From Sphingobium nicotianae (lineage in GTDB: Bacteria > Pseudomonadota > Alphaproteobacteria > Sphingomonadales > Sphingomonadaceae), in contig NZ_JAHGAW010000003.1 in assembly GCF_018603885.1 (NCBI RefSeq), positions 186,001-250,000 of the forward strand: a stretch of DNA of 64,000 nt, given 5' to 3'. This document shows, one piece after another, positions 15,135 through 63,475 of the stretch. Every line of letters starts with the position of its first letter. The first letter of the stretch is position 1. Below the pieces are notes generated by a model that saw only the letters and a list, made by a program, of their open reading frames with translations, was not told the DNA's origin and searched no databases. Position numbers and translations under genes: made by a program.

Positions 15135-16408
15135 TACACCGGCCGCCGGCGCAACATGCCGCCGGCCATGGCAAATCCCGCGATCAGCAGCGCCCAGCTT
15201 GCCGGCTCCGGCACGGCGGGGCGGACCCCATCGGAACCGAGCCGGTAAAGCGCCGTGCTTCCAAAGCTATAGCGCGTCGCGACGATCTCGCCGTCCACCG
15301 TCTCTCCGAAGCCGACCAGGGAAGGCAGGTTGCCGAGCAGCGACTTGCTGCCGACGAAGGCGCCGTTGGCATAGCCAATCGCCCAGATATTGCCCGAGAC
15401 CTGATCCCCGAACACATATTTGCCGAACAGTTCCGGCACCGCGCTGCCACGATAGACGAATCCGCCGATGATCGCCGCGCCCTCGCTATGATCATAGACG
15501 AGGTCCGGCGCCTGATAATCCACTGGCGCCACGCCGCCCGCAGGGGCCGGACCGGGAATATCCCCCTCGCGCAGTGCCCAGCCGAGATTGCGGGCAGCGC
15601 TGCCCGTTTCGACAATCGTCAGTTCCTCGCGCATATTCTCACCGACATCGGCGACGATGAGGTTTCCGTCGGGCGCGACCGAATTGCGAAAGGGATTGCG
15701 CAGACCATAAGCGAAAACTTCGGCGGCCCCACCGGCGATGGCGGGATTATCTGCCGGAATCGCGTAATTCTCGGTCGGATCGGCAAAGTCATCGCCGTGC
15801 GGATCGATGCGCAGGATCGAGCCGAACCAGTCCACCGGATTCTGCCCGGTGCCTCGGCTGTCCGGCGTCACGCCATTGCCGCCGTCGCCGATGGAGATCA
15901 GCAGCCTGCCCGTCGCGTCAAAGTCGATCCAGCCACCGACATGATGGGTCGCGCCGTCCAGATCCATCGTCCAGACCGTCTGCTCCGGCGCCGAGGCGAT
16001 CAGCGGATCGGTAAAGCGAATTACCTGTGCTTGAACCGGGTCGCTTGGGCTCGTTCGGCCGGTCAGATAAACATAATATTGGCCGTTGCTGGCATAGCCG
16101 GGATCGAAGGCGAGGCCGAGCAGCCCCAGTTCGTTGGAGGAGTTGCCGACGATCCGCGCACTCAGATTCTGGAAAGTCGAATAAGTGCTGGTGTCGATGT
16201 CATAGGCCGTGATCAGCCCATTCTTGCGCGTCATGAACAGCCGGGTTTCGCCGGCCCGATGCGTATTGCCGGTGATGCCTGTATAAACTGCGCTCAATGT
16301 CGGCGAGGGCGCCGCCAGCGTTTCGATGATGACGGCGGCATGAGCCCCCTGCGACATAGCACAAAAGCTCACGCACACGGCAAGCGCCGTGATTTTCCCC
16401 ACGCTCAT
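15110..16408 (-). CDS. Glucose/sorbosone dehydrogenase-like beta-propeller protein with PEPxxWA-CTERM tail
   Basis: A 432-residue exported protein. The signal peptide ends GAHAAVI (about 24). The body is a soluble-glucose-dehydrogenase-type propeller with blocks ELGLLGLAFDPGYASNGQYYV, ISIGDGGNG, GSILRIDPHGDD, YGLRNPFR and VADVGENMREE. The C-terminus is VPEPASWALLIAGF followed by a short basic tail (MLRRR), the PEPxxWA-CTERM sorting signal recognised by exosortase. I chose the ATG at 16406-16408 after a GGAGAC site; another in-frame ATG is 12 bases upstream. No exosortase gene is in the window. PQQ dependence and substrate are family-level guesses. Confidence 0.88.
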   Translation of the reverse strand: MSVGKITALAVCVSFCAMSQGAHAAVIIETLAAPSPTLSAVYTGITGNTHRAGETRLFMTRKNGLITAYDIDTSTYSTFQNLSARIVGNSSNELGLLGLAFDPGYASNGQYYVYLTGRTSPSDPVQAQVIRFTDPLIASAPEQTVWTMDLDGATHHVGGWIDFDATGRLLISIGDGGNGVTPDSRGTGQNPVDWFGSILRIDPHGDDFADPTENYAIPADNPAIAGGAAEVFAYGLRNPFRNSVAPDGNLIVADVGENMREELTIVETGSAARNLGWALREGDIPGPAPAGGVAPVDYQAPDLVYDHSEGAAIIGGFVYRGSAVPELFGKYVFGDQVSGNIWAIGYANGAFVGSKSLLGNLPSLVGFGETVDGEIVATRYSFGSTALYRLGSDGVRPAVPEPASWALLIAGFAMAGGMLRRRPVYQAARRLV

Positions 16409-16550
16409 GACCGTCTCCATTATGAAGGCGTTTTTGACCGTGGAGGAGCATAGCGCATTCCGGCGCGGCAGAAAGAGCACCGCTGGCTGAACCGAGCGGA
16501 ACCGGAGCGAAACCGGACATTTGTTCCATTTTGGGGCAGAAATCCCGCCT

Positions 16551-17687
16551 TCATTCGCTCCTGCGGAATGGTGTGCGCTCGTCGAGCCATTCGCGGTCGC
16601 TGGCCAGCGCCAGTGCCTCGCGCTCGACATAGTCGGCGACCGCGCGGCGGAAGCTCGGGTTGGGGATGTAATGCGCCGAGTAGGTCGCCACCGGACGATA
16701 ACCCCGCGAGAGCTTGTGTTCTCCCTGCGCCCCGGCCTCGACCCGCGCCAGCCCGCGCGTGATAGCGGCATCGATCGCCTGATAATAGCACAGCTCGAAA
16801 TGGAGGAACGGCACCTCCTCGATGCAACCCCAATAACGCCCGTAAAGCGCGTCACCGCCGATCAGATTGAGCGCGCCTGCGATCGGCCGCCCATCTCGCA
16901 GCGCCAGCATCAGCAGCACCTTGTCGGCCATGTGCTCGGACAGCAGGGAGAAGAAGCGCCGCGTGAGATAAGGCCGGCCCCATTTGCGGCTGCCCGTATC
17001 CTGATAGAAATGCCAGAAAGCATTCCAATGCGCATCGGTGAGGTCGCTGCCGGTCAGATGGACGATCTCCAGCCCCGCCTGTGCCCTGGCGCGCTCCTTG
17101 CGGACATCCTTGCGATGCCGGCTCGACATGACGCCGAGGAAATCGTCGAAGCTGCCATAGCCCTCATTGGCCCAGTGAAACTGGTTACCCTGGCGAATCA
17201 GCCAGTCGGCCGCGCGAAAAGTCTCGCACTGCTCGGGCGTGATGAAGGTCGCGTGGGCAGAGGACAGATTATTCTGATCCGTCACCGCCTCGATGCCCGC
17301 GATCAGCGTCGGCCCGGCGGCAGGATCGCGCAGCAGCAGTCGCGGCCCCGGTACCGGCGAGAAGGGTGAAGCGATCTGCAGCTTCGGATAATAATCGCCG
17401 CCCGCTCGTTCCCAGGCATCGGCCCAGCCATGATCGAAGACATATTCGCCCTGGCTGTGGCTCTTGAGATAGCCGGGCGCCGCCGCCAGCATCGTGCCGG
17501 ATGCGTCCGTGACCGTGATCGGCGCGGGCGACCAGCCGGTGCCGGGGCCAACGCTGCCCGATTCTTCCAGGATGGCGAGAAAGTCATGACAGACGAAGGG
17601 ATTGTCCGACCCCGCGCAGGCGTCCCACTCTGCCCTGTCGAGCGCGGCGACCGAATCGCACAACCGGACCGTCATCGCCTCGCTCAT
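16551..17687 (-). CDS. FemAB-like/DUF482 peptidoglycan-associated N-acyltransferase family protein
   Basis: A 378-residue protein of the PF04339 type with the acetyltransferase fold of FemAB proteins. Visible blocks are WDACAGSDNPFVCHDFL near the start, EYVFDHGWADAWERAGGDYYPKLQ, MSSRHRKDVRKERARA, and FELCYYQAIDAAI with EHKLSRGYRP near the end. The family is linked by annotation to peptidoglycan recognition or biosynthesis; the acceptor is unproven. Its ATG follows the stop of the upstream GDPD gene with no spacer, so it is the last gene of the RidA-GDPD-acyltransferase unit. Confidence 0.85.
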   Translation of the reverse strand: MSEAMTVRLCDSVAALDRAEWDACAGSDNPFVCHDFLAILEESGSVGPGTGWSPAPITVTDASGTMLAAAPGYLKSHSQGEYVFDHGWADAWERAGGDYYPKLQIASPFSPVPGPRLLLRDPAAGPTLIAGIEAVTDQNNLSSAHATFITPEQCETFRAADWLIRQGNQFHWANEGYGSFDDFLGVMSSRHRKDVRKERARAQAGLEIVHLTGSDLTDAHWNAFWHFYQDTGSRKWGRPYLTRRFFSLLSEHMADKVLLMLALRDGRPIAGALNLIGGDALYGRYWGCIEEVPFLHFELCYYQAIDAAITRGLARVEAGAQGEHKLSRGYRPVATYSAHYIPNPSFRRAVADYVEREALALASDREWLDERTPFRRSE

Positions 17688-49945: not shown

Positions 49946-50872
49946 TCAGCCGGCCTGGCTTGGCCGCTGCCGTTTGGTGATTTCCGTGATGAGCAGCCGC
50001 TCCAGCGCTTCGGTTGCGCGCGGCGCGAGCGGCGAGCGCGCGACGATGCGGCGCATCGGCTCCAGATCCGGCCCGAAGCGGGCGAGCCGCCCCTGCGCGA
50101 GCGCCGGCGCGACCTGCTCTTCCATCAGGATGCTGACGCCCAGCCCATCCTCGACGATGCTCTGGATAACGTCGGCAAATTCCAGATAGCGGACCGGGCG
50201 GCGTGGCCGGATGCCGTGCAGGGCCATCTGACGTTCGAGCCATTGCTCGGCAATGACGCCGAGATCAGGCAGGATATATTGCAGATCCTCCATGGCCAGC
50301 GTGCCCGTCGAGAGCAGGGTCGCCGTCTCGGGTGCTGCGACCATCAGGATCGGTACCTCGCCCAGCCCATGGCTGTTGGGCAGCCGCAGTGACGGACCCC
50401 CAACCGCATAGAGCAGCAGGTCGATGTCCCGCTTTGCGAATGCCGTGGCGATCTGCGCAGCGGGCAGCGTCGGGACGATTTCCAGCTCGACGTGGGGAAG
50501 TTCGGTATAGATGCGGGCGAGCAGGGGTTTCAGATAAGTATCGCGGGAGTGATTTCCGATCGACAGGCGGATACGCACTTTCTCTTCCGTTCGTCGCACA
50601 TCTTCATGACCGCGCATCGCACGACTGGTCGAGAGCAGGGCCTCGGCGCGGTGCAACATGTCGATCCCCTGGCGTGTCAGGGTCGGCGTCGTGCCGCGTC
50701 GGCGATCAAACAGCTTATGGCCGAGATGGCGCTCGAGCGTGGTGATATGGTCGCTGACCGCGGGTTGCGAGATGCCGAGCTGGTCGGCCGCCAGTGCAAA
50801 GCTGCCGTTGCGCGCTGCGCAGACGAACGTGTCGAGCTGACGCAAGGTGAAATCGCCTTCCCGTCGCCGCAC
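49946..50872 (-). CDS. LysR family transcriptional regulator
   Basis: A 308-residue LysR regulator. The N-terminal winged helix is LRQLDTFVCAARNGSFALAADQLGISQPAVSDHITTLERHLGHKLF, and the periplasmic-binding-like effector domain follows. I chose the GTG at 50872 after a GGGAGGG site; a TTG 30 bases upstream is possible. Its own promoter region carries three ATAAGC half-sites. The TonB receptor 2 gene lies 430 bases upstream on the same strand and could be a target. Confidence 0.88.
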   Translation of the reverse strand: MRRREGDFTLRQLDTFVCAARNGSFALAADQLGISQPAVSDHITTLERHLGHKLFDRRRGTTPTLTRQGIDMLHRAEALLSTSRAMRGHEDVRRTEEKVRIRLSIGNHSRDTYLKPLLARIYTELPHVELEIVPTLPAAQIATAFAKRDIDLLLYAVGGPSLRLPNSHGLGEVPILMVAAPETATLLSTGTLAMEDLQYILPDLGVIAEQWLERQMALHGIRPRRPVRYLEFADVIQSIVEDGLGVSILMEEQVAPALAQGRLARFGPDLEPMRRIVARSPLAPRATEALERLLITEITKRQRPSQAG

Positions 50873-51301: not shown

Positions 51302-53740
51302 TCAGAACGTCTTGCTGAGCGTGATGCCGTAGGTGCGCGGATCGGCGGGCTGGCCGACGATCAGGCCGGTGCTGCCGGACTGCGCCGAGAGCAGCTCGAA
51401 ATAGTCGCGATCGAAGGCGTTGCGGACCCAGCCGAAGACGTTGAAATTATCCTCGACGCGATAGCCCAGCCGGAAATTATGGACCGAGCCGCCGCCGATC
51501 CAGGTGTAGGCCGAGGGCGAGGGATTGGACGAGAAGCGGGTGCGATAGCTCGCATCATAGCCCAGATAGGCCTCACCATTGCCGACCGGCACATTATATT
51601 CGCCGCCCCAGGCGAAGGAAAAGCGCGAGATGCCGGGCAGGCGCTGCCCGGAAATGTCGCAGAAGGCCGGGCTGAGGCCGCCCGGCGTGCCCGGGGCGCT
51701 CGGCACCTGGGTGCCCGTCACGGTCGTGCCGCCGGAGAGCTCGGGCGGACAGGGTGCATCCTTGAAGCTCACATATTTGGCGTCGGTGAAGGCGCCGTTG
51801 AGGTAGCTGCGGAAGCGGTCGCTCGGTCGGAAGCTCGCATCGAACTCGAAGCCGCGCACCCGCACCTTCTCGGCATTGGCGAGATAGCCGCGGATGACGC
51901 CGAGCTGGCCGTTGGTGACGGTCGCCTGATAGTCGCCGACCTCGGTCCAGAAGCCCGCTATGTTGAGCGTCACCCGGCGATCGAGGAACTGGGTCTTGAG
52001 GCCGATCTCATAATGATTGACCGATTCGGGCTTCACCGTCTGGGTGCTCAGGATCGGGTTGTTGGTCGCGTCGAGCGGCAGGCCGGAGAGGTTGATACCG
52101 CCCGACTTGAAGCTCTTCGCGTAGGTCGCATAGGCATTGATGTCGCGCGTGACATTATAGGAGACAGTGAAGTCGCCCGAGAGGTTCCAGTCGCTGAAGC
52201 TGGGCTTGTAGCTCTGCGGCGCGAGGACGCCGCGCTGGTCGGCGTTCAGCGTCGTGCTGCCCGCCCCGGTGGTGACCACCGAGACATAGGATCCGTCCTT
52301 CCTGTCATAGTTGAGGCGCAGGCCCGGCTGGATGTGCAGCCCCTCGATCGGCTGCCAGTTGAGCTTGCCGAACACGGCGAAGCTCTTGTTGCTGAAGCCG
52401 ATGGTGTTGGTCGAGGTCAGGCCGTTCAGCACCGAGGGATTGCAGGCATTGGCCGTCAGCGTCGCGCAGCCGTTGGCCAGGAAGGGCGGGTTGCCCGGAT
52501 TGAGCAACCAGCGGCTTGCCGCCGGGCCCTGCACCTGCGAGCCCTGCGTGTCGATCTTCTGCCAGAAGTAGAAGGCGCCGATCGTGTAATCGAGCTTGCC
52601 GCCGCTGTTCGAGGCGAGCCGCACTTCCTGGCTGAACTGCTTCTGCTGCGAGGGATTCTGCGACACGGTCGTGATCGGCAGGCCGACGAAGTCGCGGTCG
52701 TTGGCCGGCTTCCAGTCCCAGTAGCGCCACGCCGAAACCGAAGTCAGCGTCACGAAGCCGAGATCCCAGTTGGCGGTCAGCGAGGCGCCGCCCATTTCCT
52801 GCCGGCTGTTGCTCGCCGCATCGAGATCGGTCACGCGATCGAACGGATTGAGGCTCGGCGGCGTATAGCCGAACGCGGCGGCAAGCGCGGCATATTGCCG
52901 GCTGAGCGGACGCTGCGTGGCGCCGGTGCGCGCGTAGATCTGGACGCAGCAGAGCGGGTTCTGGACGTTATAGTCGCCGGCCAGGGTCAGATCGAGGTTC
53001 GGGCTGGCGCGCCACAGCAGCTGGCCGCGGAAGGTGACGTTGTCGAGCCGGTGCACGTCCGTCCTGGTCGTGACGTCATAGATGGTGCCGTCGCGCCTGG
53101 TGAGCGAGGTCGAAAGGCGGACGGCCAGCTTGTCCGCGACCAGCGGGCCGGAGATCGATCCCTTGAACTGCATGAAGTCGTAGTTGCCGTAGCTCGCCTC
53201 GGCCTGGCCGCCCCAGTCGAAGCTCGGCGCCTTGGTGGTGATGTTGACCGCGCCGGCGGTCGTGTTCTTGCCGTAGAGCGTGCCCTGCGGCCCGCGCAGC
53301 ACCTCGACGCGCTCGACATCGACGAAATCGAAGGTCGAGGCGCCGACGCGACCGACATAGACCCCGTCCAGATAGAAGCCGACGCCCTGCTCCAGGCCGT
53401 CATTGGTGAGGCCGAACGGCGCGCCGAGGCCGCGAATGTTGATCGCGCTGTTGCGCGGATTGGACGAGTAGAATTGCAGCGCCGGCTGCTGCTGCTGCAG
53501 GCGATTGAGATTGAACGCGCCGGTCCTGGCAAGCTCCTGCCCGGTGACGATCGACATGGCGATCGGCACATCCTGCGCGCGCTCCTCGCGGCGACGGGCG
53601 GTCACGACGATCTCACCCGTATTGGCCTGCGCCTGCGGGATGGCCGGATCGTCCTGCGGCGCGTCCTGGGCAAGCGCGGGAAACGGAAACAGCAGAGACG
53701 CGGCCAGCGCGCTCGACGAAAGAATGGACCTGCGGACCAT
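51302..53740 (-). CDS. TonB-dependent outer membrane receptor 2
   Basis: An 812-residue receptor. The signal peptide ends PALAQD (about 25), a TonB-box-like EIVVTARRR is at about 43-51, the plug has INIRGLGAPFGLTNDGLEQGVGFYLDGVYVGR and VEVLRGPQGTLYGKNTTAG, and the barrel ends RTYGITLSKTF. Its plug resembles receptor 1 and other catabolic-type receptors of sphingomonads. Upstream on the same strand lies a YezD/DUF2292 gene. Its ligand could be a sulphur-containing organic compound by that context, but this is an inference. Confidence 0.92.
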   Translation of the reverse strand: MVRRSILSSSALAASLLFPFPALAQDAPQDDPAIPQAQANTGEIVVTARRREERAQDVPIAMSIVTGQELARTGAFNLNRLQQQQPALQFYSSNPRNSAINIRGLGAPFGLTNDGLEQGVGFYLDGVYVGRVGASTFDFVDVERVEVLRGPQGTLYGKNTTAGAVNITTKAPSFDWGGQAEASYGNYDFMQFKGSISGPLVADKLAVRLSTSLTRRDGTIYDVTTRTDVHRLDNVTFRGQLLWRASPNLDLTLAGDYNVQNPLCCVQIYARTGATQRPLSRQYAALAAAFGYTPPSLNPFDRVTDLDAASNSRQEMGGASLTANWDLGFVTLTSVSAWRYWDWKPANDRDFVGLPITTVSQNPSQQKQFSQEVRLASNSGGKLDYTIGAFYFWQKIDTQGSQVQGPAASRWLLNPGNPPFLANGCATLTANACNPSVLNGLTSTNTIGFSNKSFAVFGKLNWQPIEGLHIQPGLRLNYDRKDGSYVSVVTTGAGSTTLNADQRGVLAPQSYKPSFSDWNLSGDFTVSYNVTRDINAYATYAKSFKSGGINLSGLPLDATNNPILSTQTVKPESVNHYEIGLKTQFLDRRVTLNIAGFWTEVGDYQATVTNGQLGVIRGYLANAEKVRVRGFEFDASFRPSDRFRSYLNGAFTDAKYVSFKDAPCPPELSGGTTVTGTQVPSAPGTPGGLSPAFCDISGQRLPGISRFSFAWGGEYNVPVGNGEAYLGYDASYRTRFSSNPSPSAYTWIGGGSVHNFRLGYRVEDNFNVFGWVRNAFDRDYFELLSAQSGSTGLIVGQPADPRTYGITLSKTF

Positions 53741-53853: not shown

Positions 53854-54042
53854 TCAGGCGGTCAGGCGAGTCTTCTCGGTGACTTCGATCTGCACGAGCC
53901 GCCCTTCATGGACGGTCAGATGGACAGCGCCGAACTTGAGTTTTTCCAGCGCTTGCCGAACGAGCGCGAGTGCGCCCGCTTCATGGTCGATCCGCTCCGG
54001 TGCGGCGGATGGCCCGGCGGGTTGGGGCGATGACTGCGACAT
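53854..54042 (-). CDS. YezD family (DUF2292) protein
   Basis: A 62-residue protein whose C-terminal half, EKLKFGAVHLTVHEGRLVQIEVTEKTRL, is the DUF2292/YezD signature (FGxVxLxVHxGxxVQIExTEK). These proteins are often encoded among sulphur or sulphonate assimilation genes. ATG at 54040-54042 follows GGAGA. It is 113 bases upstream of TonB receptor 2 on the same strand, so they could be one transcript. The IS remnant immediately upstream may have cut off further partners. Confidence 0.85.
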   Translation of the reverse strand: MSQSSPQPAGPSAAPERIDHEAGALALVRQALEKLKFGAVHLTVHEGRLVQIEVTEKTRLTA

Positions 54043-54182
54043 GGTTTCTCCTCGTACGCGGCCTGAATGGAGTCGCACGGATGTGCGAGCGCAAACTTAA
54101 CTCAATCGATAGAATTGACAATCTGCCTGCGGCGAAGATTTGCTTTTCTGCGAGGAACTGCAGCTTGCGGTGAGTGGAGGTA

Positions 54183-54945
54183 CTAGGTTGGGGACTCATA
54201 AGCGCGAAGCCACAGCCGCATTGAGGCCAGCTGGACCATGGCGAGGAAGTTTGCGGCAAGTTTGTCGTAGCGGGTGGCGACGCGGCGGAAGTGCTCAACT
54301 TGGAGAAGAACCGCTCGATCAGGTTGCGCTCGCGGTAGAGCCGCTTGCTGAAGCACGGCTTCCAACGTCGGTTGATCTTGGGCGGGATGTTGGGTGTGGC
54401 GCCCTGATCCTGGATCAGCCCGCGGATGCGGTCGGCATCATAGGCCTCGTCGGCCAGCACGATGGTGCGCGGGCCGAGATGGTCGAGCAGCGTGTCGGCG
54501 ATCTGCCCATCGTGCGCCTGCCGGCGGTCAGGCCGAGCCGGATCGGGAGGCCCTGCGCGTCGACGACGACGTGGATCTTGGTCGTGAGCCCGCCTCGGCT
54601 GCGACCGAGACAATGATCTGGACCCCTTTTTGCCGTCGCGGCCTGCTGATGCGCGCGAACGGAAGTGCTGTCGATCATCTGGATGTCGCCGTCATGGGCG
54701 GCGGTGATAGCGTCCATCAGCCGGTCCCACACACCTGCCTTTCGCCATCGCACGAAGCGGTTGTAGCAGGTGGTGCGCGGGCCATAGCGCTCGGGCAGGT
54801 CGCGCCACGGCGCGCCGGAGCGCAGCACCCAGAAAATGCCGTTCAGCACGCGCCGGTCATCGACGCGCGGCACGCCTCGCGGCTTGTTGGGCAGCAGCGG
54901 CTCGACCACACGCCACTCGAAGTCGGTCAGGTCATATCGGCTCAT
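54183..54945 (-). pseudogene. IS5-family transposase, broken by two frameshifts
   Basis: Reads as one transposase in three frames. First piece: MSRYDLTDFEWRVVEPLL, then RSGAPWRDLPERYG and the DDE region IDSTSVRAHQ, to GLTAG. After a shift, DGQIADTLLDHLGPRTIVLADEAYDADRIR and FSKRLYRERNLIERFFSKL. After a second shift, HFRRVATRYDKLAANFLA to the end RAYESPT. Each shift is explained by one missing base (at a GG and an AG context), not by a slippery programmed site. So the element is inactive, unless the deletions are homopolymer sequencing errors. Confidence 0.85.
54183..54945 (-). mobile_element. IS5-family insertion sequence remnant
   Basis: The transposase-bearing part of the element. I could not find matching terminal inverted repeats or a target-site duplication: GAATCAG near 54957 resembles an IS5-type end, but no partner is seen on the left side (54100-54185). 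The outer limits are therefore not defined. Confidence 0.7.
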
Positions 54946-55412: not shown

Positions 55413-55534
55413 TAAGCCCCTCCTCTTCAGAGGAGGGGTTGGGGTGGTGCTTGCGACGTCGCGGTCATTCGCTTCGCGAGCGATGCTGCGCATCGCCACC
55501 ACCTCCTACCCCTCCTCTAAAGAGGAGGGGCTAT
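55413..55534. repeat. Composite palindromic repeat (BIME-like), copy 4
   Basis: Left arm (about 55413-55449): TAAGCCCCTCCTC-TTCA-GAGGAGGGG then TTGGGGTGG. Right arm (about 55495-55533): CCACCACCTCCTA then CCCCTCCTCTAAAGAGGAGGGGCTA-like. The two arms face each other as in the copy at 2671, with about 45 unrelated bases between. It lies between the 55033 gene and the NTF2-like array. The flanking 55354-55412 and 55535-55672 stretches hold no gene I can support. Confidence 0.85.
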
Positions 55535-55672: not shown

Positions 55673-56113
55673 TTACGAAAGCGGAGCAGGCGGCCCGTTT
55701 GTGATCGGCTTGAGCGTCCGCCGCGCGAAGACCCAGCGGCCATCCTCGCGCACCAGCTCGTCGTCATAATGGGCGGAGACGGCCACGGTCGGGCGCTTGG
55801 TCTCCTTGTCGGGCGTCATGAACACGCAGGTCGATCTGGCGCGGGCGCGGTCCGGCCCGTCGAAGGTCACCACCTCGTTGAAGAAGAGGTGGAAATTGGG
55901 CGTGTTGGTCGCGTTGGGGCCAGTGGCGAAAATGTTGCGCATCAGCGGGCCGGCTTCCGCGCCCCTGGTCGTCGACGGGCCGGCCTCGTAAATGCCGTCC
56001 TTGCCGAACAGCTTGCCGAACCCGTCGAAGTCGCGCCGGTCGAGCGCCGCGCCATATTCGATGAGCAGCTCATGGATGGCGACGCGATCCGCCATCTCGG
56101 TTGCGTGGGTCAT
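55673..56113 (-). CDS. NTF2/SnoaL-like protein E (cytosolic member of the array)
   Basis: A 146-residue NTF2-fold protein, MTHATEMADRVAIHELLIEYGAALDRRDFDGFGKLFGKDGIYEAG..., ending VFARRTLKPITNGP. The first block is the SnoaL-like_4 pattern, and it resembles member D closely (ITNGP, FDGFxKLFGxDGxY). Unlike D, it has no signal peptide. Members of this fold act as small isomerases, dehydratases or hydrolases, or only bind ligands. It is the last gene of the five, 21 bases after D. Confidence 0.85.
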   Translation of the reverse strand: MTHATEMADRVAIHELLIEYGAALDRRDFDGFGKLFGKDGIYEAGPSTTRGAEAGPLMRNIFATGPNATNTPNFHLFFNEVVTFDGPDRARARSTCVFMTPDKETKRPTVAVSAHYDDELVREDGRWVFARRTLKPITNGPPAPLS

Positions 56114-56134
56114 GATGTCTTCCTTCCCGTTGGA

Positions 56135-56635
56135 TTATTTCGCCGCGGCCGGGCCGTTGGTGATCGGCTTGACGGTGCGGCGAGCGAACAGCCACTTGCC
56201 GCCCTTGCGCACCAGCGCATCCTCATAGCGGGCCGAGAGCAGGGGCGTCGGGCGCTTGGTCTCCTTGTCCGGCACCACCCACAGCGACATGGAGGTTGCG
56301 TGGGCCTTGTCCGGCCCGTCGAAGGTCACGACCTCATTGTAGAAGAGATGGAAATTCGGCTCGCCGACGCCGCTCGGATTGTTGGCGAACACGCCGCGCA
56401 TCATCTCGCCGGTGGCGGCGCCCTTGGCCTCGCGGCCGCCGCCCGCGACATAGACACCGTCCGCGCCGAACAGCTTGCTGAAGCCGTCGAAATCGCGCGC
56501 ATCGAGCGTCGCGCCATAGGCCATCAGCAGCGCATGGATGGCGGCGCGATCGGCCGCCTCGTTGCGCTGCGCTGACGCTGGCACCGCGCCGGCGAGGAGC
56601 GCCGCGGCCGCGGCAAGACTGGTCAAGGCTCTCAT
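56135..56635 (-). CDS. NTF2/SnoaL-like protein D (exported)
   Basis: A 166-residue protein with a signal peptide (LLAGAVPASAQ, about 23). The NTF2 block ADRAAIHALLMAYGATLDARDFDGFSKLFGADGVYVAG and the block FHLFYNEVVTFDGPDKAHATSMSLWVVPDKETKRP are shared with E. Same C-terminal RRTVKPITNGP. Its ATG overlaps the stop of C by four bases. It is the exported version of E, so the D/E pair probably arose by duplication, with loss or gain of the signal. Confidence 0.85.
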   Translation of the reverse strand: MRALTSLAAAAALLAGAVPASAQRNEAADRAAIHALLMAYGATLDARDFDGFSKLFGADGVYVAGGGREAKGAATGEMMRGVFANNPSGVGEPNFHLFYNEVVTFDGPDKAHATSMSLWVVPDKETKRPTPLLSARYEDALVRKGGKWLFARRTVKPITNGPAAAK

Positions 56636-57186
56636 TTCTGCTGCGCCCTCCGTTCCCTGATATATTTGCCCCATTCCTCGGGCGTCGGCATGATCGGATA
56701 GTCGATGCGCTTCAGGATCTTCCAGGCGCCGTCCTCGCGGATGAGCTGGTCCTCGTAGCGCCCGGCCAGCACAGGCTCGGGCTGGCCGCTGGGTCCGCGC
56801 ATGATCAGCAGGTGCCGCGAACGCGCCGTCGCCCGGTCGCCGTCGATGTCGACCTGCAGGTTGGTCGTGATGTGATAGCTCTCATTGTTGACGTAGCCGG
56901 CCGGCGTCGCGCCATAGAGGTCGATCAGCATCTTGTGGATGGCGTCGCGGCCCTTCTTGACCGTCGGCCCGTTCGCCCATTCGCCCTCTTTGGCGAACAG
57001 GGCGGTGTAGCCCTCATAGTCGTGCGCATCCTGGGTGAAGCTATAGTCCAGCAGGATCCGGCGAATGGCCAGCTCGTCCTCGACGCGTTGCACGCGCTGC
57101 GCGAAGTCCGGCTTCGGCGGCGCCTTGGCGACGACGGGGGTGGTGACGGCCAGCAGGGCGACCCCGGCGATGAGCGCCCGCATCAT
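56632..57186 (-). CDS. NTF2/SnoaL-like protein C (exported)
   Basis: A 184-residue protein. The signal peptide ends TTPVVAKA. The core QRVQRVEDELAIRRILLDYSFTQDAHDYEGYTALFAKEGEW and LAGRYEDQLIREDGAWKILKRIDYPIMPTPEEWGKYIRER are shared with members A and B. An acidic-aromatic C-terminal motif MPT-P/Q-E-E-W is present in all three. A double ATG at 57186/57183. Its start overlaps the stop of B by four bases. Enzymatic residues are unknown. Confidence 0.85.
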   Translation of the reverse strand: MMRALIAGVALLAVTTPVVAKAPPKPDFAQRVQRVEDELAIRRILLDYSFTQDAHDYEGYTALFAKEGEWANGPTVKKGRDAIHKMLIDLYGATPAGYVNNESYHITTNLQVDIDGDRATARSRHLLIMRGPSGQPEPVLAGRYEDQLIREDGAWKILKRIDYPIMPTPEEWGKYIRERRAQQK

Positions 57187-57752
57187 GGCCGGGTCTGCGC
57201 CGGCATGCGGGAGGACATGATCTTCTGCCATTCCTCCTGCGTGGGCATGACGGGGAAATCGGTGCGGCGCTGGATCTTCCAAACGCCATTCTCGCGGATC
57301 AGCGCGTCCTCGTAGCGGCCGGCAAGGTTGGGGAAGGGCTTCCCGTCCGGCCCGCGCTTCACCATCAGATGACGCGACCAGGCCGTGGCATGGTCGCCAT
57401 GCAGATCGATCCGCATGTTGGTCGTGTGCGTGTAGAGGATCGTGCCGGGGTCCGGATCGCCGGGCCTGGGCGTGCCCCAGATGCCGCGGAGCAGCTTGAC
57501 GATCTCGTCATGCCCCTTGTGCGGCACGCCGCCATTCACCCAGGCGCCGTCCCTGGCGAAGAGATTGGCGTAGCCCTCGGCATCATGCGCATCGAGATAA
57601 TGATGATAGTCGATCAGGATGCGGCGGATGGCGAGCTCATCCTCGACGCGCTGGACACGCTGCGCGAAGCTGGGCTTGGATACGGACGCCTTGGCAAGGG
57701 CCGGTGCCGGCGCGATCAGCAGCAGCGCCAGGCCCGCGGCGATCGCGCGCAT
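57183..57752 (-). CDS. NTF2/SnoaL-like protein B (exported)
   Basis: A 189-residue protein with a signal peptide (LLLIAPAPALAKA). Shared core QRVQRVEDELAIRRILIDYHHYLDAHDAEGYANLFARDGAWVNG, with an extra 10-residue loop (PRPGDPDPG) not present in C, then LAGRYEDALIRENGVWKIQRRTDFPVMPTQEEWQKIM. ATG at 57750-57752 overlaps the stop of A by one base. B and C are clearly tandem duplicates. Confidence 0.85.
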   Translation of the reverse strand: MRAIAAGLALLLIAPAPALAKASVSKPSFAQRVQRVEDELAIRRILIDYHHYLDAHDAEGYANLFARDGAWVNGGVPHKGHDEIVKLLRGIWGTPRPGDPDPGTILYTHTTNMRIDLHGDHATAWSRHLMVKRGPDGKPFPNLAGRYEDALIRENGVWKIQRRTDFPVMPTQEEWQKIMSSRMPAQTRP

Positions 57753-58294
57753 CAGGGTTTGGCCTGCGGCGCCGTCGCCTTCTTCCATTCGTCGGGCGTC
57801 GGCATGACATTCTCGGCGACGCGGCGCTTGATCTTCCAGACGCCGTTCAGCTTGACGAACTCGTCGCGATAAATGCCGGCCAGCGCCGGCTGCGGATGGC
57901 CGCCCTCGCCGCGCATCACGAAGAGGAAGCGAGACCAGGCCGTCGCCGTGTTGCCGGTCACGTCGACGCGCGGATTGGTGATGATGTGATAGTTGGAATG
58001 ATTCTCCGCCATGGCCGGGCCGAGCATGCCGGAGAGCATGTCGTGGATCGCCTTCTGGCCCTTGTGGGTGCCGGCCGGATTGACCCATTCGGCGTCGGGC
58101 GTGAACAGGCCGACATAATGGTCGTAATCGCGGGTATCGAGATAATAGGCATAGTCGACGAGCACGCGATCGATCGCCAACTCGCTTTCCGCGCGCTCGA
58201 GCCTTTGCTCGGCGGAGAGGGCCTTTGCCCTGGGTTGCGCGCCTGCGGCGACCGGCATCGCGACGAGCGCGGCGGTCAGGATCCAACGGATCAT
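57752..58294 (-). CDS. NTF2/SnoaL-like protein A (exported, first of the array)
   Basis: A 180-residue protein with a signal peptide (ALVAMPVAAGAQP). The core AEQRLERAESELAIDRVLVDYAYYLDTRDYDHYVGLFTPDAEW and LAGIYRDEFVKLNGVWKIKRR with VMPTPDEWKK matches B and C, but it is the most diverged of the three. It heads the operon, divergent from the aldo/keto reductase gene with a 125-base regulatory region. Likely periplasmic. Confidence 0.85.
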   Translation of the reverse strand: MIRWILTAALVAMPVAAGAQPRAKALSAEQRLERAESELAIDRVLVDYAYYLDTRDYDHYVGLFTPDAEWVNPAGTHKGQKAIHDMLSGMLGPAMAENHSNYHIITNPRVDVTGNTATAWSRFLFVMRGEGGHPQPALAGIYRDEFVKLNGVWKIKRRVAENVMPTPDEWKKATAPQAKP

Positions 58295-58359
58295 CTCGAC
58301 TCCTCTCCTTAACTTGTTCAGTATTTCTCTAGCGCATCAAGTCTGGGCTTGTCACGATC

Positions 58360-58371
58360 GATCGCGCGATC
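58360..58371. promoter_or_regulatory. Palindrome between the NTF2 array and the aldo/keto reductase gene
   Basis: GATCGCGCGATC, a perfect 12-base palindrome, within the 125-base divergent promoter region. On the minus strand a GTGACA and a TAGAGA lie near-correctly spaced as a promoter. A shared operator is plausible but unproven. Confidence 0.4.
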
Positions 58372-58419
58372 AATAGCAAGCGCACGACCTGCCTGCTTGA
58401 TTGGAGAGGAACCGCCGAC

Positions 58420-59427
58420 ATGGACTATCGCTATCTGGGCGGCAGCGCCCTTCGCATCTCGCCGCTGTGCCTGGGCGCCATGATGTTCGGGGACGCCACC
58501 GACGAGCCGACCGCCAAGCGCATCATCGACAAGGCGCGCGAGCAGGGCTTCAACTTCATCGACACCGCCGATGGCTATAATGACGGCCGCTCCGAGGAAT
58601 ATGTCGGCCGCTCGATCAAGCATGACCGCGATCACTGGGTCGTCGCCACCAAGTTCGGCCACCGCATGGGGCCGGGGGCCAATCAGGGCGGCCAGTCGCG
58701 CAAGTGGATCGTGCAGGATGTCGAGGCGAGCCTGAAGAAGCTCGGCGCCGACTATATCGACCTGCTCTATTTCCATAAGGCGGATATCAATGCGCCCTTC
58801 GAGGAAGGCCTGCGCGCGATCGACGACCTGATCGAGCAGGGCAAGCTGCGCTATTATGGCGTATCCAACTTCAAGGGCTGGCGGATCGCGGACGTCTGCC
58901 GCGCCGCCGATGCGCTCAACATGGATCGCCCCGTCGCCAGCCAGCCGCTCTACAATATGGTCGATCGCCTGTCGGAAGTGGAGCAGCTCCCCGCCGCCGG
59001 CCATTATGGCCTGGGCGTCGTGCCCTACAGCCCGCTGGCGCGCGGTGTGCTGAGCGGGAAATATACGCCGGGCGCCGAGCCGCCCGCTGACTCGCGTCTC
59101 GCGCGGGGCGACGTGCGCATCAAGCAGACCGAGTGGCGGCCGGAATCGGTCGACATCGCGCAGGCCGTCAACAAGCATGCCGCGGCGAAAGGCGTCAGCA
59201 CGGTCGCCTTCGCGATCGCCTGGGTGCTGCGCAACCGCTTCGTCAGCGCGGCCATCGTCGGGCCGCGCACGGAAGCGCAGTGGGACGCCTATCTGGAAGC
59301 GCTCACCGTCCAGCTTGGCCCGGAGGACGAGGCCTTCGCCGACAGCCTGGTGACGCCCGGCTATGCCTCGACCTATGGCTATGTCGATCCTGCCTACCCG
59401 ATCGAGGGACGGCAGCTGCGGGGATAA
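58420..59427 (+). CDS. Aldo/keto reductase
   Basis: A 335-residue AKR TIM barrel. Catalytic tetrad: D48 (FIDTADGYN), Y53, K78 (VATKFGH) and H119 (LLYFHKAD). NADPH-binding features lie near the C-terminus (VPYSPLARGVLSGKY, AIVGPRT). This is the YajO/MocA-like class that reduces aldehydes and ketones; substrate unknown. ATG follows TTGGAGAGGAAC. It is divergent from the NTF2 array and followed by the dioxygenase-like gene after 75 bases, so the two and TonB receptor 3 may form a unit. Confidence 0.92.
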   Translation: MDYRYLGGSALRISPLCLGAMMFGDATDEPTAKRIIDKAREQGFNFIDTADGYNDGRSEEYVGRSIKHDRDHWVVATKFGHRMGPGANQGGQSRKWIVQDVEASLKKLGADYIDLLYFHKADINAPFEEGLRAIDDLIEQGKLRYYGVSNFKGWRIADVCRAADALNMDRPVASQPLYNMVDRLSEVEQLPAAGHYGLGVVPYSPLARGVLSGKYTPGAEPPADSRLARGDVRIKQTEWRPESVDIAQAVNKHAAAKGVSTVAFAIAWVLRNRFVSAAIVGPRTEAQWDAYLEALTVQLGPEDEAFADSLVTPGYASTYGYVDPAYPIEGRQLRG

Positions 59428-59502
59428 CGCATCGACCTGCCGTCGGGAGTGTGCGAGAAATCCGGACCTTGATTTCCCGTCCCGCCCGCCGATCTTCCCG
59501 TC

Positions 59503-60393
59503 ATGTACAGCGTCCCGCCGCCTGATCCCGACGCCCTTCATGAGGCGCTTTATGAAGGCGCGATCGTGCGGTTCGGCGATCTCCCGGCGATGCGCGACAT
59601 CGTCGCTTATGCGCGCGCCTTCCTCGCCGATCAGCTCGGGTCGCAGGATCCGGTGCGCATCCACGAGGCGTTCGACCGGCAGGCCCTCGCACAGACTCTG
59701 TCCGATGTGCAGCGCGCCTTCGCCAATGCGCCCGAAGCCAAGCGACTGTGGCGCGCCCTTCTGGAGGAACTCGGCTTCGATCCGCGGGACATGGCGCGAG
59801 ACCGGCTGATCCTGCGCTTTCAGCCCCCGATCCCGCCGGACGGCGATCCGCATCACGCCCGGTCGACCGCGACCGTCGGTTTCCATCGCGACAGCTGGGG
59901 GTCCAACCTCTACGCGCAGGTGAACTGGTGGGCGCCCATCTATCCGATCACGGCCGGGCGCACATTCGCTTTCCTGCCGGACCATTTCGCGAAGGTCATC
60001 CCCAACGACAGCGCGCAGTTCGACCTTGCCGAGCTGATGGCGCACAACCGCGCTGCGCCAGCGCAGGCGCCGCGCAAGCCGATGACGCCGCGCCCGCTCG
60101 ACCCCGTCGATCCGGCGCTCGGTCAGCCGGTCGTGATCGATCCGGGCGAGGTCATCGCCTTCTCCGCCCAGCATGCCCATGTCGGCGTGCCCAATCGCAC
60201 CGGGCTGACCCGGATCTCGCTGGACACGCGGACACTGCGCCTGTCCGATCAGCGCGCCGGGCGCGGCGCGCGCAATGTCGACGGGCGAGCGCTCTGGACC
60301 GCATATGGCATGTTCCGCCGCGTGTCCGACGGCGCGCCATTGCCCGATGTGCTCCAGGTGCCACAGTTGGAGCCCTTTCGGCACGATCTGTAA
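59503..60393 (+). CDS. Fe(II)/2-oxoglutarate dioxygenase-like protein (PhyH-like fold)
   Basis: A 296-residue protein with a double-stranded beta-helix iron site. The facial triad is H128-x-D130 in TVGFHRDSWGS and a distal His in SAQHAHVGVP (H224 or H226). A conserved arginine candidate is in NRTGLTRISLDTR, where 2-oxoglutarate binds. The first 100 residues are helical. The fold resembles phytanoyl-CoA dioxygenase-like proteins, but overall identity is not recognisable to me. It likely hydroxylates or otherwise oxidises a small molecule. It lies between the AKR and TonB receptor 3. Confidence 0.72.
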   Translation: MYSVPPPDPDALHEALYEGAIVRFGDLPAMRDIVAYARAFLADQLGSQDPVRIHEAFDRQALAQTLSDVQRAFANAPEAKRLWRALLEELGFDPRDMARDRLILRFQPPIPPDGDPHHARSTATVGFHRDSWGSNLYAQVNWWAPIYPITAGRTFAFLPDHFAKVIPNDSAQFDLAELMAHNRAAPAQAPRKPMTPRPLDPVDPALGQPVVIDPGEVIAFSAQHAHVGVPNRTGLTRISLDTRTLRLSDQRAGRGARNVDGRALWTAYGMFRRVSDGAPLPDVLQVPQLEPFRHDL

Positions 60394-60483
60394 CGGGCAT
60401 CCGCCATTTCGCGGGCTGCTTGCTATCAAACCCTCATCATTCAGCTTGAAATTGCTATCTAGCTATGCTGTGCGCCGGCCAGA

Positions 60484-60499
60484 AGGTAGGTACCTACCT
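60484..60499. promoter_or_regulatory. Perfect 16-base palindrome upstream of TonB receptor 3
   Basis: AGGTAGGTACCTACCT is fully symmetric and 57 bases upstream of the receptor start codon. Its size and internal repeats are typical of a TetR- or MarR-type operator. No such regulator is encoded in the window, so a distant gene or one just outside may act here. Confidence 0.6.
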
Positions 60500-60556
60500 A
60501 TTGCATCCTTGGTCCGCAATCACCCGTCCGCGTCGACCGACAACTGGGAGAGAGAC

Positions 60557-63475
60557 ATGCTTCGCTTCGCAACATCTCGTTTTCGTATGCAGGGCCTGAG
60601 CCATGCGGCGCTCGCCGCCGCGCTGATGCTCGGTGCCGCGCATCCGGCGCTCGCGCAAGACGAGACTGCCGCACCGGCCGCCGCGGATGAGCCCGCCGCC
60701 GCGCCCGCCCAGGGCGAAGAAGAGGCCATCGTGGTCACCGGCTCGCGCATCGCCCGCTCAGGCTTCGATCAGCCCACGCCGGTCACCGTGTTCGGCGCCG
60801 AGCGCGCCCAGACGCTGGGCATCACCAACATCGCCGACGGCCTGAACCAACTCCCCAGCTTCCGCGCGTCCGGCTCGCCGAGCAACGTCCAGTCCGCCGG
60901 TGGCAATATCGGCGCGCGCATTCTCGATCTGCGCGCGCTCGGTGCGCCGCGCACCCTGGTGCTGGTCGATGGCCGCCGCTTCGTGCCGAGCACGGGCGAG
61001 GGCACGGTCGACGTCAACCTCATTCCTTCGGGCCTGGTGCAGCGCACCGAGGTCGTCACCGGCGGCGCCTCGGCCGTCTACGGTTCGGACGCGGTCGCGG
61101 GCGTGGTCAACTTCATCCTCGATCGCAAGTTCGAGGGGCTGAAGGCCGAGATCCAGTCCGGCTTCTCGCAGCGCGCCGACGACACCAACTGGTTCGCCAG
61201 CTTCACCGGCGGCTTCAAGATCGGCGATCGCGGTCACTTCGTCATCTCGGGCGAATATGAGGACAATAGCGGCCTGGGCGATTGCTACTCGGCCCGCGCC
61301 TGGTGTGCGCAGGAGCGCTCGATCGTCGGCAATACGCCGGCCGGCACCGGCGGTCAGCCGTCCAGCATCATCACCTCGAACGTCCATGTCTCGACCATGT
61401 CGCCGACCGGCCTCATCAACCGCTCGCTCGACGCGGCCGGCAAGCCGGTCTATGCCAATGCGGCCAATGACCCGCTGCGCGGCACCACCTTCACGGACAA
61501 TGGCACGCCGCGCCAGTTCCAGTACGGCCAGTTCGCCGGCCCGCTCTTCATGATCGGCGGCGAGGGGAAGGGCGTCAATCCATTCCTCTCCAGCCTGCTG
61601 CTCAAGGTGCCGGTCGAGCGCCAGAGCCTCTACGGCGCGCTTTCCTATGAGCTGACCGACACGATCGAAGCTTATGCCGACCTTTCCTACGGTCGCGTGG
61701 CGGGCAAGACCCTGTCGTCGACCTTCCGGGATTTCAACGGCTCGATCATCGGCAACATCAAGGTCGACAATCCCTATATCCCGGCCTCGGTGCTGGCGAC
61801 GATGCAGCAAAATGGCATCGCCCAGCTGCAGCTCGGCCGCTCGGGCTTCGACCTCGGCAGTCCGGTCGGCCTGGCGCGGACGGAGACGATGCGCTTCGTC
61901 GGCGGCTTCAAGGGCAACCTGGGCGGCAGCTGGAAGTGGGACGTCTACTATCAGTATGGCAAGACCAGCTTCCGCCAGGACACGTATAACGACCCGATCA
62001 ACGCCCGCATGAAGAATGCGGTCGACGCGGTCCGCGACGGCAACGGCAACATCGTGTGCCGCATCAATGCCGACGCGATCACCACCAATGACGATCCGGC
62101 CTGCGCGCCGCTCAACCTGTTCGGCCAGGGCCAGTTCAGCGCGGCCGCCCGCAACTATGTGACCGGCTCGGGCTTCCAGCGCACGATCAACACCCAGCAT
62201 GTCGTTGCGGCGAACGTCAGCGGCGACCTGTTCAGCATCACCAGCCGGCCGGTCTCGGTCGCGGTGGGCGCCGAGTGGCGTCGCAACACCATCTCGGGCA
62301 CGACGGATCCCATCTCCGCCGCGCTCGGCTTCTGGGTGCTCAACGGGCAGGCCGTGTCGGGCAAGCAATCGGTCAAGGAAGCCTATGGCGAAGTCGTCGT
62401 GCCGCTGCTCGCCGACATGACGGCTGTCGAGAATCTCGAGCTCAACGGCGCCTTCCGCGTCACCGACTATAGCGACAGCGGCGAGGTCGAGACCTGGAAG
62501 GTCGGCGGCGTCTATGAGCCGGTGCAGGGCATCCGCTTCCGCGTCACCCAGTCGCGCGACATTCGTGCGCCGAACCTCACGGAGCTGCGCGGCCCGCAGC
62601 AGAAGACGACGATCGGCCTCACCGATCCGGTCACCGGCCTGCAGGCCAATCCGGTCGTCATCCGCGGCTCCAACCCGAACCTGAAGCCCGAGAAGGCGGA
62701 CAGCTTCACCGCCGGCATCGTCATCGCGCCGCGCGGTGGCGGCTTCCTGTCGCGCACGCGCCTGTCGGTCGATTATTACAGCATCCAGGTGAAGCAGGCG
62801 ATCGGCCAGCTCGGCGCGCAGACCCTGGTCCAGCGCTGCAAGGACGGCGCGACCGAGTTCTGCCCGCTGATCACGCGCGACGTGAACAACAATGTCATTC
62901 AGGTGAATGACATTCTGGTGAACGCCAACCAGCTCAAGACGCGCGGCGTCGACGTCGAGTTCGATTATCGCCAGCCGCTCGGCGATCTGGGCACGGTCAC
63001 GCTGCGTGGTCTCGCGACCTTCTACATGGACCTGATCACGACCGACAGCGCGGGCGCCACCGAGCGCGCGGGCCAGACCGGCTCGCGCTCGGGCACGTTG
63101 CTCGGCGTTCCCGATTATTCGCTGGACGGCACGCTGAGCTGGACGCGCGGGCCGGTGACGCTGACCGGGCACAGCCGCTACATTCCCGGTGGCAGCTACA
63201 ACGTCGCCTTCATCGGGCCGGACGATCCACGCTATTCGGTCACGCTGCCGACCAGCGTCAACGACAACCGCGTCCAGGGCCGTTACTATCTGGACCTGTC
63301 CGGCTCGTACAAGTTCGCGCTGGCCTCGGGCCGGGAGATCGAGCTGTTCGGCGCCATCAACAATGTGTTCGATCGCGATCCGCCGGTCATTCCGTCGGGC
63401 AATCTCGGCACCAATCAGGTGCTGTTCGATCCGGTCGGCCGCGCCTTCAAGATTGGCGCGCGCGTCAAGCTCTGA
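60557..63475 (+). CDS. TonB-dependent outer membrane receptor 3
   Basis: A 972-residue receptor. The signal peptide ends ALAQD (about 34), then a proline/alanine-rich linker and a TonB-box-like EEAIVVTGSRI. The plug has LDLRALGAPRTLVLVDGRRFVPS and VVTGGASAVYGSDAVAGVVNFIL. The barrel ends AFKIGARVKL (not phenylalanine). This is the VTGSRI/LDLRxLG subclass abundant in sphingomonads, Caulobacter and Xanthomonas, differing from receptors 1 and 2. The ATG follows GGGAGAGAGAC. It is followed by a strong terminator. Confidence 0.92.
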   Translation: MLRFATSRFRMQGLSHAALAAALMLGAAHPALAQDETAAPAAADEPAAAPAQGEEEAIVVTGSRIARSGFDQPTPVTVFGAERAQTLGITNIADGLNQLPSFRASGSPSNVQSAGGNIGARILDLRALGAPRTLVLVDGRRFVPSTGEGTVDVNLIPSGLVQRTEVVTGGASAVYGSDAVAGVVNFILDRKFEGLKAEIQSGFSQRADDTNWFASFTGGFKIGDRGHFVISGEYEDNSGLGDCYSARAWCAQERSIVGNTPAGTGGQPSSIITSNVHVSTMSPTGLINRSLDAAGKPVYANAANDPLRGTTFTDNGTPRQFQYGQFAGPLFMIGGEGKGVNPFLSSLLLKVPVERQSLYGALSYELTDTIEAYADLSYGRVAGKTLSSTFRDFNGSIIGNIKVDNPYIPASVLATMQQNGIAQLQLGRSGFDLGSPVGLARTETMRFVGGFKGNLGGSWKWDVYYQYGKTSFRQDTYNDPINARMKNAVDAVRDGNGNIVCRINADAITTNDDPACAPLNLFGQGQFSAAARNYVTGSGFQRTINTQHVVAANVSGDLFSITSRPVSVAVGAEWRRNTISGTTDPISAALGFWVLNGQAVSGKQSVKEAYGEVVVPLLADMTAVENLELNGAFRVTDYSDSGEVETWKVGGVYEPVQGIRFRVTQSRDIRAPNLTELRGPQQKTTIGLTDPVTGLQANPVVIRGSNPNLKPEKADSFTAGIVIAPRGGGFLSRTRLSVDYYSIQVKQAIGQLGAQTLVQRCKDGATEFCPLITRDVNNNVIQVNDILVNANQLKTRGVDVEFDYRQPLGDLGTVTLRGLATFYMDLITTDSAGATERAGQTGSRSGTLLGVPDYSLDGTLSWTRGPVTLTGHSRYIPGGSYNVAFIGPDDPRYSVTLPTSVNDNRVQGRYYLDLSGSYKFALASGREIELFGAINNVFDRDPPVIPSGNLGTNQVLFDPVGRAFKIGARVKL

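Follow-up and report, generated by a model that had tools for sequence, protein, structure and literature searches.

A SnoaL_4 gene array beside an OscA-like gene and a TonB-dependent receptor is shared by ten related Sphingobium genomes

We analyzed a 64,000-nucleotide stretch of the Sphingobium nicotianae genome (contig NZ_JAHGAW010000003.1, positions 186,001 to 250,000; G000:C20:186001-250000 in our numbering, G000 being the window's genome, of 4.43 Mb), hereafter the window. It carries five genes of the SnoaL_4 family (PF13577; NTF2 fold), designated A to E, which run head to tail on the minus strand and diverge from plus-strand genes for an aldo/keto reductase (AKR), a dioxygenase-like protein, and a TonB-dependent receptor (receptor 1). 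This array belongs to a locus of ten related genomes ("related" meaning the same genus and the same locus, with no species tree), one part of a large and already known expansion of genes with the NTF2 fold. Its constant partners are the D-type SnoaL gene, an OscA-like gene, and a second TonB-dependent receptor (receptor 2); the AKR, dioxygenase-like, and receptor 1 genes are less constant. The initial annotation had bounded the locus as the five genes and the plus-strand trio, and its observation proved real and conserved but incompletely bounded, because the OscA-like gene and receptor 2, the most conserved neighbors, were left out. We tentatively favor the explanation that A to E are exported enzymes, acid-base lyases or dehydratases, whose substrate is a hydrophobic compound taken up by the cell and perhaps derived from lignin.

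Five SnoaL_4 genes at a conserved locus

All five proteins matched SnoaL_4 well above its gathering cut-off of 24 bits: A (57752-58294; 180 residues; 106.6 bits), B (57183-57752; 189 residues; 84.8 bits), C (56632-57186; 184 residues; 90.2 bits), D (56135-56635; 166 residues; 77.5 bits), and E (55673-56113; 146 residues; 85.6 bits), the scanned versions of B and D lacking their first one and two codons, respectively. As first annotated, A and B overlap by one base, B and C by four, and C and D by four, and a gap of 21 bases separates D from E. The shared C-terminal ending MPT-P/Q-E/D-EW was likewise confirmed (MPTPDEW in A, MPTQEEW in B, MPTPEEW in C), as was ITNGP in D and E.

To place the array among its relatives, we used the DUF2292 (OscA-like) gene, present once in each of 86 of the 94 genus genomes, and examined 7 to 20 kb around it (the 64-kb window for G000 and a 6.6-kb contig for G034). 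A receptor 2 homologue of at least 50% identity stood beside this gene on the same strand at 86/86 loci (within 600 bases at 84), and SnoaL genes, two to seven in number, lay beside the pair at exactly 10 of them. These were G028 (seven genes), G000 (five), G034, G094, and G074 (three each), G073 (three, the third frameshifted), G105, G097, and G086 (two each), and G095 (at least two, at a contig end). The AKR gene was beside the array in 8 of the 10 (G000, G028, G034, G094, G105, G097, G073, and G074), with a dihydroxy-acid-dehydratase-like gene between the two in G094; the oxygenase gene followed the AKR in five (G000, G028, G034, G094, and G105), and receptor 1 followed the oxygenase in four (G000, G028, G034 [contig end], and G094). 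Conserved gene order, which the initial annotation had proposed as a check on its interpretation, was therefore found within the genus, and the interpretation is partly supported. Outside the genus it was not: with the AKR as a marker (E ≤ 1e-135 in 15/397 family genomes, four of them genomes with the locus), the array was present in 0 of the 10 other-genus neighborhoods examined out of 11 (G399 was left out), three of these contigs being short or ending near the AKR. A scan of the wider contig collection with A as the query found nothing. Among the loci examined, no other genus had the array.

Gene types and selection

The phylogeny of the array was reconstructed with FastTree from 39 proteins, 30 from the locus and 9 paralogues, leaving out two genes, the third of G073 (frameshifted) and the first of G095 (cut by the contig end). 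D and E types fell on one side of the tree, and the C, B, and A types, together with a further type (G028_1, G073_1, and G074_1), on the other. Support was 1.0 for D plus E, 1.0 for E, 0.94 for C, and 0.81 for B, whereas A-type nodes were weak (0.16 to 0.79) and took in paralogues of other loci. D was represented in nine genomes, C in eight, A in five, B in two, and E in two (with two E copies in G028). D is the most constant member, intact in eight other genomes and frameshifted in G073 (L089, approximately 16327-16900), where relatives' copies are intact.

In this tree the nearest relatives of each of A to E lay at the corresponding locus in one or more other species, the A group being weakly supported, and ratios of nonsynonymous to synonymous substitution rates (dN/dS, NG86 method) against these locus relatives were below 1, from 0.17 (D) to 0.54 (A). 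Together, the shared position and these ratios indicate that the array is more than a chance assembly. Recent tandem duplication of one gene was ruled out as its origin, since A to E group with proteins of other species and not with each other (A-type nodes again being weak).

Export, conserved residues, and fold of the SnoaL proteins

The initial annotation assigned signal peptides to four of the five proteins, and a simple script rule, used here in place of a dedicated predictor, agreed, marking A to D as exported-looking and E as not. Across eight genomes 24 of the 28 proteins from the locus were positive; these include two G028 proteins of E type that we judged to be false positives, and three of the four rule-negative proteins have doubtful start codons. 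Among SnoaL proteins in the examined stretches of the window's genome, 11/38 were positive.

Four residues (Tyr48, Asp53, Tyr142, and Arg158, in A numbering) were invariant in all 39 aligned proteins. His103 was His in 33/39; B and G028_4 have Thr at this position, and four paralogues from other loci have Glu. In those four paralogues Asn107 is replaced by His, and one protein has Thr there. B carries a His one residue later (YTHTTN), and its relative G028_4 has the same displaced His. Asp53, His103, and Asn107 of A align with Asp, His, and Asn of the gamma-hexachlorocyclohexane dehydrochlorinase LinA, and the Asp-His pair, which we take to be LinA's catalytic pair, is present at the aligned positions in A, C, D, and E, the His of B being shifted by one residue. 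LinA was among the best sequence and fold matches of A; it differs in that LinA chains have Lys or Gln where A has Tyr48, A to D look exported, and structure-alignment identity was 26 to 28%. The model of A (mean predicted local distance difference test score [pLDDT] of 86.5) matched NTF2-fold chains, led by 2rfr (Z 19.3), LinA (18.1), and the scytalone-dehydratase-like 3ef8 (17.7), with LdpA at 16.4 to 16.7.

NTF2-fold lyases are already described in lignin-dimer catabolism: according to PMC12997858 and PMC11323797, the NTF2-family proteins LdpA and PcfL convert beta-1 and beta-5 dimers into stilbenes plus formaldehyde, and lignostilbene dioxygenases cleave the stilbenes. Like the array proteins, LdpA and PcfL have the NTF2/SnoaL fold, with an Asp aligned in the same helix, and lignostilbene-dioxygenase-family genes are found near the array at 5/10 loci. 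His97 of NaLdpA (named by the title of an H97Q entry) fell two residues before His103 of A in a profile alignment only. We nevertheless rejected A to E as LdpA/PcfL members because similarity was weak (A against LdpA chains, E of 1.8e-6 to 3.8e-5 only; LdpA and PcfL are 44% identical to each other [PMC11323797]) and the genome holds a separate LdpA orthologue (526 bits). That orthologue is a single gene elsewhere, encoding 242 residues with no evident signal peptide, whereas A to E have 146 to 189 residues and are encoded in a row.

SnoaL_4 expansion and lignostilbene dioxygenases

The initial annotation knew of no described system with such an array. We found no description of the array itself in a literature search limited to open-licence papers, but rows of SnoaL domains are common in this genome. 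It contains 59 SnoaL_4 matches, 58 above the cut-off (matches being domains, not genes), many of them in rows: seven on C7, seven at C23:163-168 kb, three at C23:280-282 kb, three each on C25 and C26, and the five of this array. On C25 and on C26 the row is a single protein with three SnoaL_4 domains, and three of the C23:163-kb matches likewise belong to one chain; such fused rows were seen, for instance, at L008:6923-8320 and L014:8263-10380. A second SnoaL row (L008:4241-18100, on C23) also contains CMD-like proteins, a short-chain dehydrogenase/reductase, a Rieske-type dioxygenase pair, and an AKR, and is perhaps an aromatic pathway; its genes were named by reading, with CMD taken from the Pfam match of a similar protein in G034. 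Across the 94 genus genomes, SnoaL_4 matches ranged from 0 to at least 40 among the matches listed, with counts of at least 40 for four genomes.

For SYK-6, a review counts eight lignostilbene dioxygenase homologues and 62 homologues in the NTF2 superfamily, the specificity of most of the latter being unknown (PMC12997858). The same strain has 74 TonB receptors, 17 of them induced by lignin-derived aromatics (PMC6874591); a later paper from the same group gives 12 induced receptors (PMC8599685).

Lignostilbene-dioxygenase-family genes lay within 10 kb of SnoaL genes at five of the ten loci. In G105 and G094 such a gene adjoins receptor 2, at a distance of approximately 3 kb from the SnoaL genes. 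The distance was 8.5 to 9.6 kb in G073, G074, and G097, and a second G105 copy was approximately 14 kb away. The nearest solved relative was checked for the genes of G105, G094, and G073, and for the G105 and G094 gene beside receptor 2 it was lignostilbene dioxygenase isozyme I. We take G073 to be SYK-6. The G073 gene may be LSD2 (SLG_36640), judging from its position (PMC8191317). The window's genome has six lignostilbene-dioxygenase-family genes in addition to its LdpA orthologue. Among the matches listed, the 13 genomes with at least four lignostilbene-dioxygenase-family genes had a median of 31 SnoaL_4 matches versus 11 in the other 81, and in 83 better assemblies the two counts were correlated with a Spearman rho of 0.38 (descent ignored). 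Proximity and copy number are supportive, but not decisive, for a link to lignin chemistry.

Aldo/keto reductase, oxygenase, and receptor 1

The three genes initially annotated on the opposite strand were all confirmed there. The AKR (58420-59427, plus strand; 335 residues) matched PF00248 (222.9 bits), and its best solved matches were 7utf, DepB (8hwn), and 9wk1. Receptor 1 (60557-63475, plus strand; 972 residues) has both barrel and plug domains (PF00593 and PF07715). The protein between them (59503-60393, plus strand; 296 residues) matched no family of Pfam or NCBIfam at E 0.001, but its predicted model supports the initial call of a facial-triad dioxygenase-like protein. Foldseek gave 234 PDB matches at E ≤ 0.001, the best 50 of which were Fe(II)/2-oxoglutarate (2OG) or related non-heme oxygenases (SptF and PtlH best, E 1.9e-7; GriE also matched); in the matches listed, the template modeling score was 0.35 to 0.5, the root mean square deviation 6 to 14 Å, and identity 8 to 17%. 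The model (pLDDT 75.5, low around residues 115-134, which include the HxD motif) resembles the double-stranded beta-helix fold of the Fe(II)/2OG type. In seven homologues H128, D130, H224, H226, and R237 were invariant, so that the HxD...H metal triad (H128xD130...H226) is conserved, and R237 would be the 2OG-binding Arg. The protein resembles the Fe(II)/2OG oxygenases PtlH, SptF, GriE, and KanJ in its predicted fold, HxD...H motif, and candidate distal Arg but differs in matching no Pfam or NCBIfam model and in its low identity to those listed.

The oxygenase was found in 6/94 genus genomes and at seven loci in the wider contig collection, three of which are this locus. Its family also occurs in metagenome-assembled genomes of Rhizobiales, gammaproteobacteria, Actinomycetota, and Nitriliruptorales (L064-L067). 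No SnoaL gene was called near the oxygenase at the four other loci or in G066, and for this reason the oxygenase was rejected as a diagnostic marker of the array.

The initial annotation inferred import of a ligand followed by its oxidation and reduction. Homologues of receptor 1 (approximately 57% identity) in four genomes (G117, G108, G015, and G064) are followed by genes for a major facilitator superfamily (MFS) transporter, a 2OG oxygenase different from that of the window (TauD/TfdA family), and a 2-hydroxyacid dehydrogenase, and a fifth locus (G102) ends after the MFS gene; the G117 genes were assigned by Pfam and the others named by near-identical N-termini. Because this pattern of receptor, 2OG oxygenase, and reductase recurs, it supports the view that receptor 1, oxygenase, and AKR make up a single import-oxidize-reduce unit, with or without a substrate shared with the array. 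It fits that part of the initial inference; the genes involved, however, are the less constant side of the locus.

The same pattern favors one of the two main rivals to our explanation, in which one unit consists of receptor 1, 2OG oxygenase, and AKR, the array belongs to receptor 2, and the two are merely adjacent. Five genomes (G097, G073, G074, G086, and G095) keep the SnoaL, OscA-like, and receptor 2 genes without oxygenase or receptor 1 at the locus, and the receptor 1 orthologue of G086 is on another contig. Against two independent units, array and AKR diverge over a short intergenic region in G000, G028, G034, G105, and G097, and the AKR stays next to the array without the oxygenase in G073, G074, and G097. 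We regard this rival, which is not exclusive of the favored explanation, as a possibility of some weight, though not a likely one.

OscA-like gene, receptor 2, and candidate regulatory features

The OscA-like protein (53854-54042, minus strand; 62 residues) scored 55.3 bits against PF10055 (DUF2292), above the Pfam cut-off, but only 44.8 bits against the NCBIfam OscA model NF033785 (cut-off 85), and it may not be a true OscA. It differs from OscA/DUF2292 proteins of that family also in being paired with a TonB receptor, a pairing for which our literature search found no description. Receptor 2 (51302-53740, minus strand; 812 residues) has barrel and plug (PF00593 and PF07715). Downstream lies a LysR-type gene (49946-50845, minus strand; PF00126 and PF03466), a candidate regulator, which was near receptor 2 in six of the ten genomes (orthologues at L042, L068, L090, L091, and L140), directly after it in G000, G028, G073, G074, and G086 and after the lignostilbene-dioxygenase-family gene in G094.

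These neighbors give rise to the other main rival, that receptor 2 and its OscA-like partner import organosulfur compounds from which the exported SnoaL proteins release, or of which they bind, the sulfur group, the aromatic link being incidental. NCBIfam names OscA a sulfur starvation response protein, the invariable pairing with receptor 2 extends to all ten SnoaL loci, where the SnoaL genes are next to the pair (with an insertion sequence between them in the window), and a hydantoinase/oxoprolinase-family gene is nearby in G028 and G073. However, besides the subthreshold OscA score, the pair needs no SnoaL genes, standing without them at 76/86 loci, and no sulfatase, sulfonate monooxygenase, or sulfate transporter was noticed at the locus, its flanks having been mostly read by eye rather than scanned with a profile library. 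We consider sulfur scavenging by the array rather unlikely. Since the pair occurs so widely without SnoaL genes, receptor 2 itself may serve sulfur acquisition, the array having been added in some genomes.

In the window, E is separated from the OscA-like gene and receptor 2 by 1.6 kb carrying an IS4/5-family transposase gene (53981-54945, minus strand; PF13340 and PF01609 on 54415-54945). Its C-terminal part runs on in another frame (open reading frame 53981-54613, by reading), so that the gene is split or frameshifted. A pair of sequences resembling repetitive extragenic palindromes (55415-55442 and 55505-55532) forms 28-base inverted repeat arms, 93% complementary and 62 bases apart.

The divergent region between A and the AKR spans 125 bases (58295-58419). 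A 9-mer count over nine such intergenic regions revealed no conserved operator, a ribosome-binding-site motif being the only signal above 20 shuffles. Reading by eye, we saw in five genomes (L063, 8725-8996; L069, 8875-9079; L092, 16902-17097; L089, 15057-15170; L091, 14352-14517) a block like TTTCCAYCTGCG...ATTAG, a possible promoter or operator, that lies upstream of the first SnoaL gene, and did not see it in the window.

Discussion

Under the favored explanation, the compound brought in by receptor 2 (and in some genomes by receptor 1) would be hydrophobic and most likely an aromatic of plant or lignin origin. Diverged, mostly periplasmic NTF2-fold enzymes of the LinA/scytalone-dehydratase/LdpA type would then act on related forms or stereoisomers of it, and the products would be finished in the cytosol; the putative 2OG oxygenase and the AKR would be an accessory oxidation-reduction pair, present only in some genomes. 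The DdvT locus of SYK-6, which concerns the lignin-derived dimer DDVA, similarly has a TonB receptor beside catabolic and regulator genes, but the present locus differs from it in having several exported-looking SnoaL proteins and a 2OG-oxygenase-like protein (PMC6874591). In favor of the explanation are the gene order conserved at the ten loci, the dN/dS ratios below 1, the conserved residues and their alignment with LinA, the fold shared with LinA, scytalone dehydratase, BaiE, and LdpA, the lignostilbene-dioxygenase-family genes near half of the loci, and the described stilbene-forming role of LdpA and PcfL.

Several observations weigh against this explanation. A to E are shorter than LdpA and only weakly similar to it, and four of the five look exported, whereas the LdpA orthologue does not; His103 is displaced in B; and the OscA link points to sulfur. 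In G095, in G113, and in G086, where 11 kb separates it from the array, the AKR has no SnoaL gene next to it, and the same holds at 9/10 other-genus loci, the tenth having a lone SnoaL-like gene. The aromatic link is uneven: no lignostilbene-dioxygenase-family gene was found on the locus contig of G000, G028, G034 (6.6 kb), G086, or G095; the copy-number correlation over all 94 genomes was weak (rho 0.34, descent ignored); 10 of the 81 genomes with fewer than four such genes have at least 20 SnoaL_4 matches; and SnoaL matches are found within 10 kb of three of the six such genes in the window's genome (binomial P = 0.046, descent ignored). Finally, the model of A also matched CaMKII hubs, which are non-enzymes, at Z of approximately 16.5, and because these hubs score like the enzymes, the NTF2 fold alone names no function.

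Two further alternatives seem unlikely. The proteins could be dehydratases of steroids, bile acids, or terpenoids, BaiE being an example with this fold: BaiE-type structures matched the model of A at Z of 17.2 to 16.1, and the nearest solved relatives of the AKR include DepB and a deoxynivalenol 3-epimerase chain, enzymes that act on a polycyclic alcohol or ketone, but fold similarity does not separate functions here, and no steroid-ring genes were noticed on reading the loci by eye. Alternatively, as small, single-domain, exported-looking proteins in several diverged copies, with designed binders and hubs among the fold matches of A, they could be noncatalytic periplasmic binders holding a hydrophobic ligand after import, but the invariant Asp53, Tyr48, and Arg158 and the mostly conserved His103 argue for catalysis.

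A more speculative proposal, which we think quite improbable, is periplasmic elimination: receptor 2 would import sulfonated or sulfated plant aromatics (e.g., lignosulfonate-type dimers), from which LinA-like SnoaL enzymes, one per stereo- or regioisomer, would release sulfite or sulfate. A single system would then tie together the OscA link, the residues shared with LinA, the varying number of enzymes, and the nearby lignostilbene dioxygenases, and the cell would gain both sulfur and a stilbene-type product for those dioxygenases.

The locus makes a compact target: its proteins fall into five types, each with conserved residues, its receptors are defined, and a regulator can be proposed. It has a relative in SYK-6, a strain in which TonB receptor genes have already been deleted (PMC6874591), and additional lignin-associated pathways are said to await characterization (PMC12997858). 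If, as the favored explanation holds, the array proteins act as lyases in the periplasm, some of the aromatic breakdown would precede transport across the inner membrane, unlike the reaction of LdpA, whose orthologue here is without a signal peptide.

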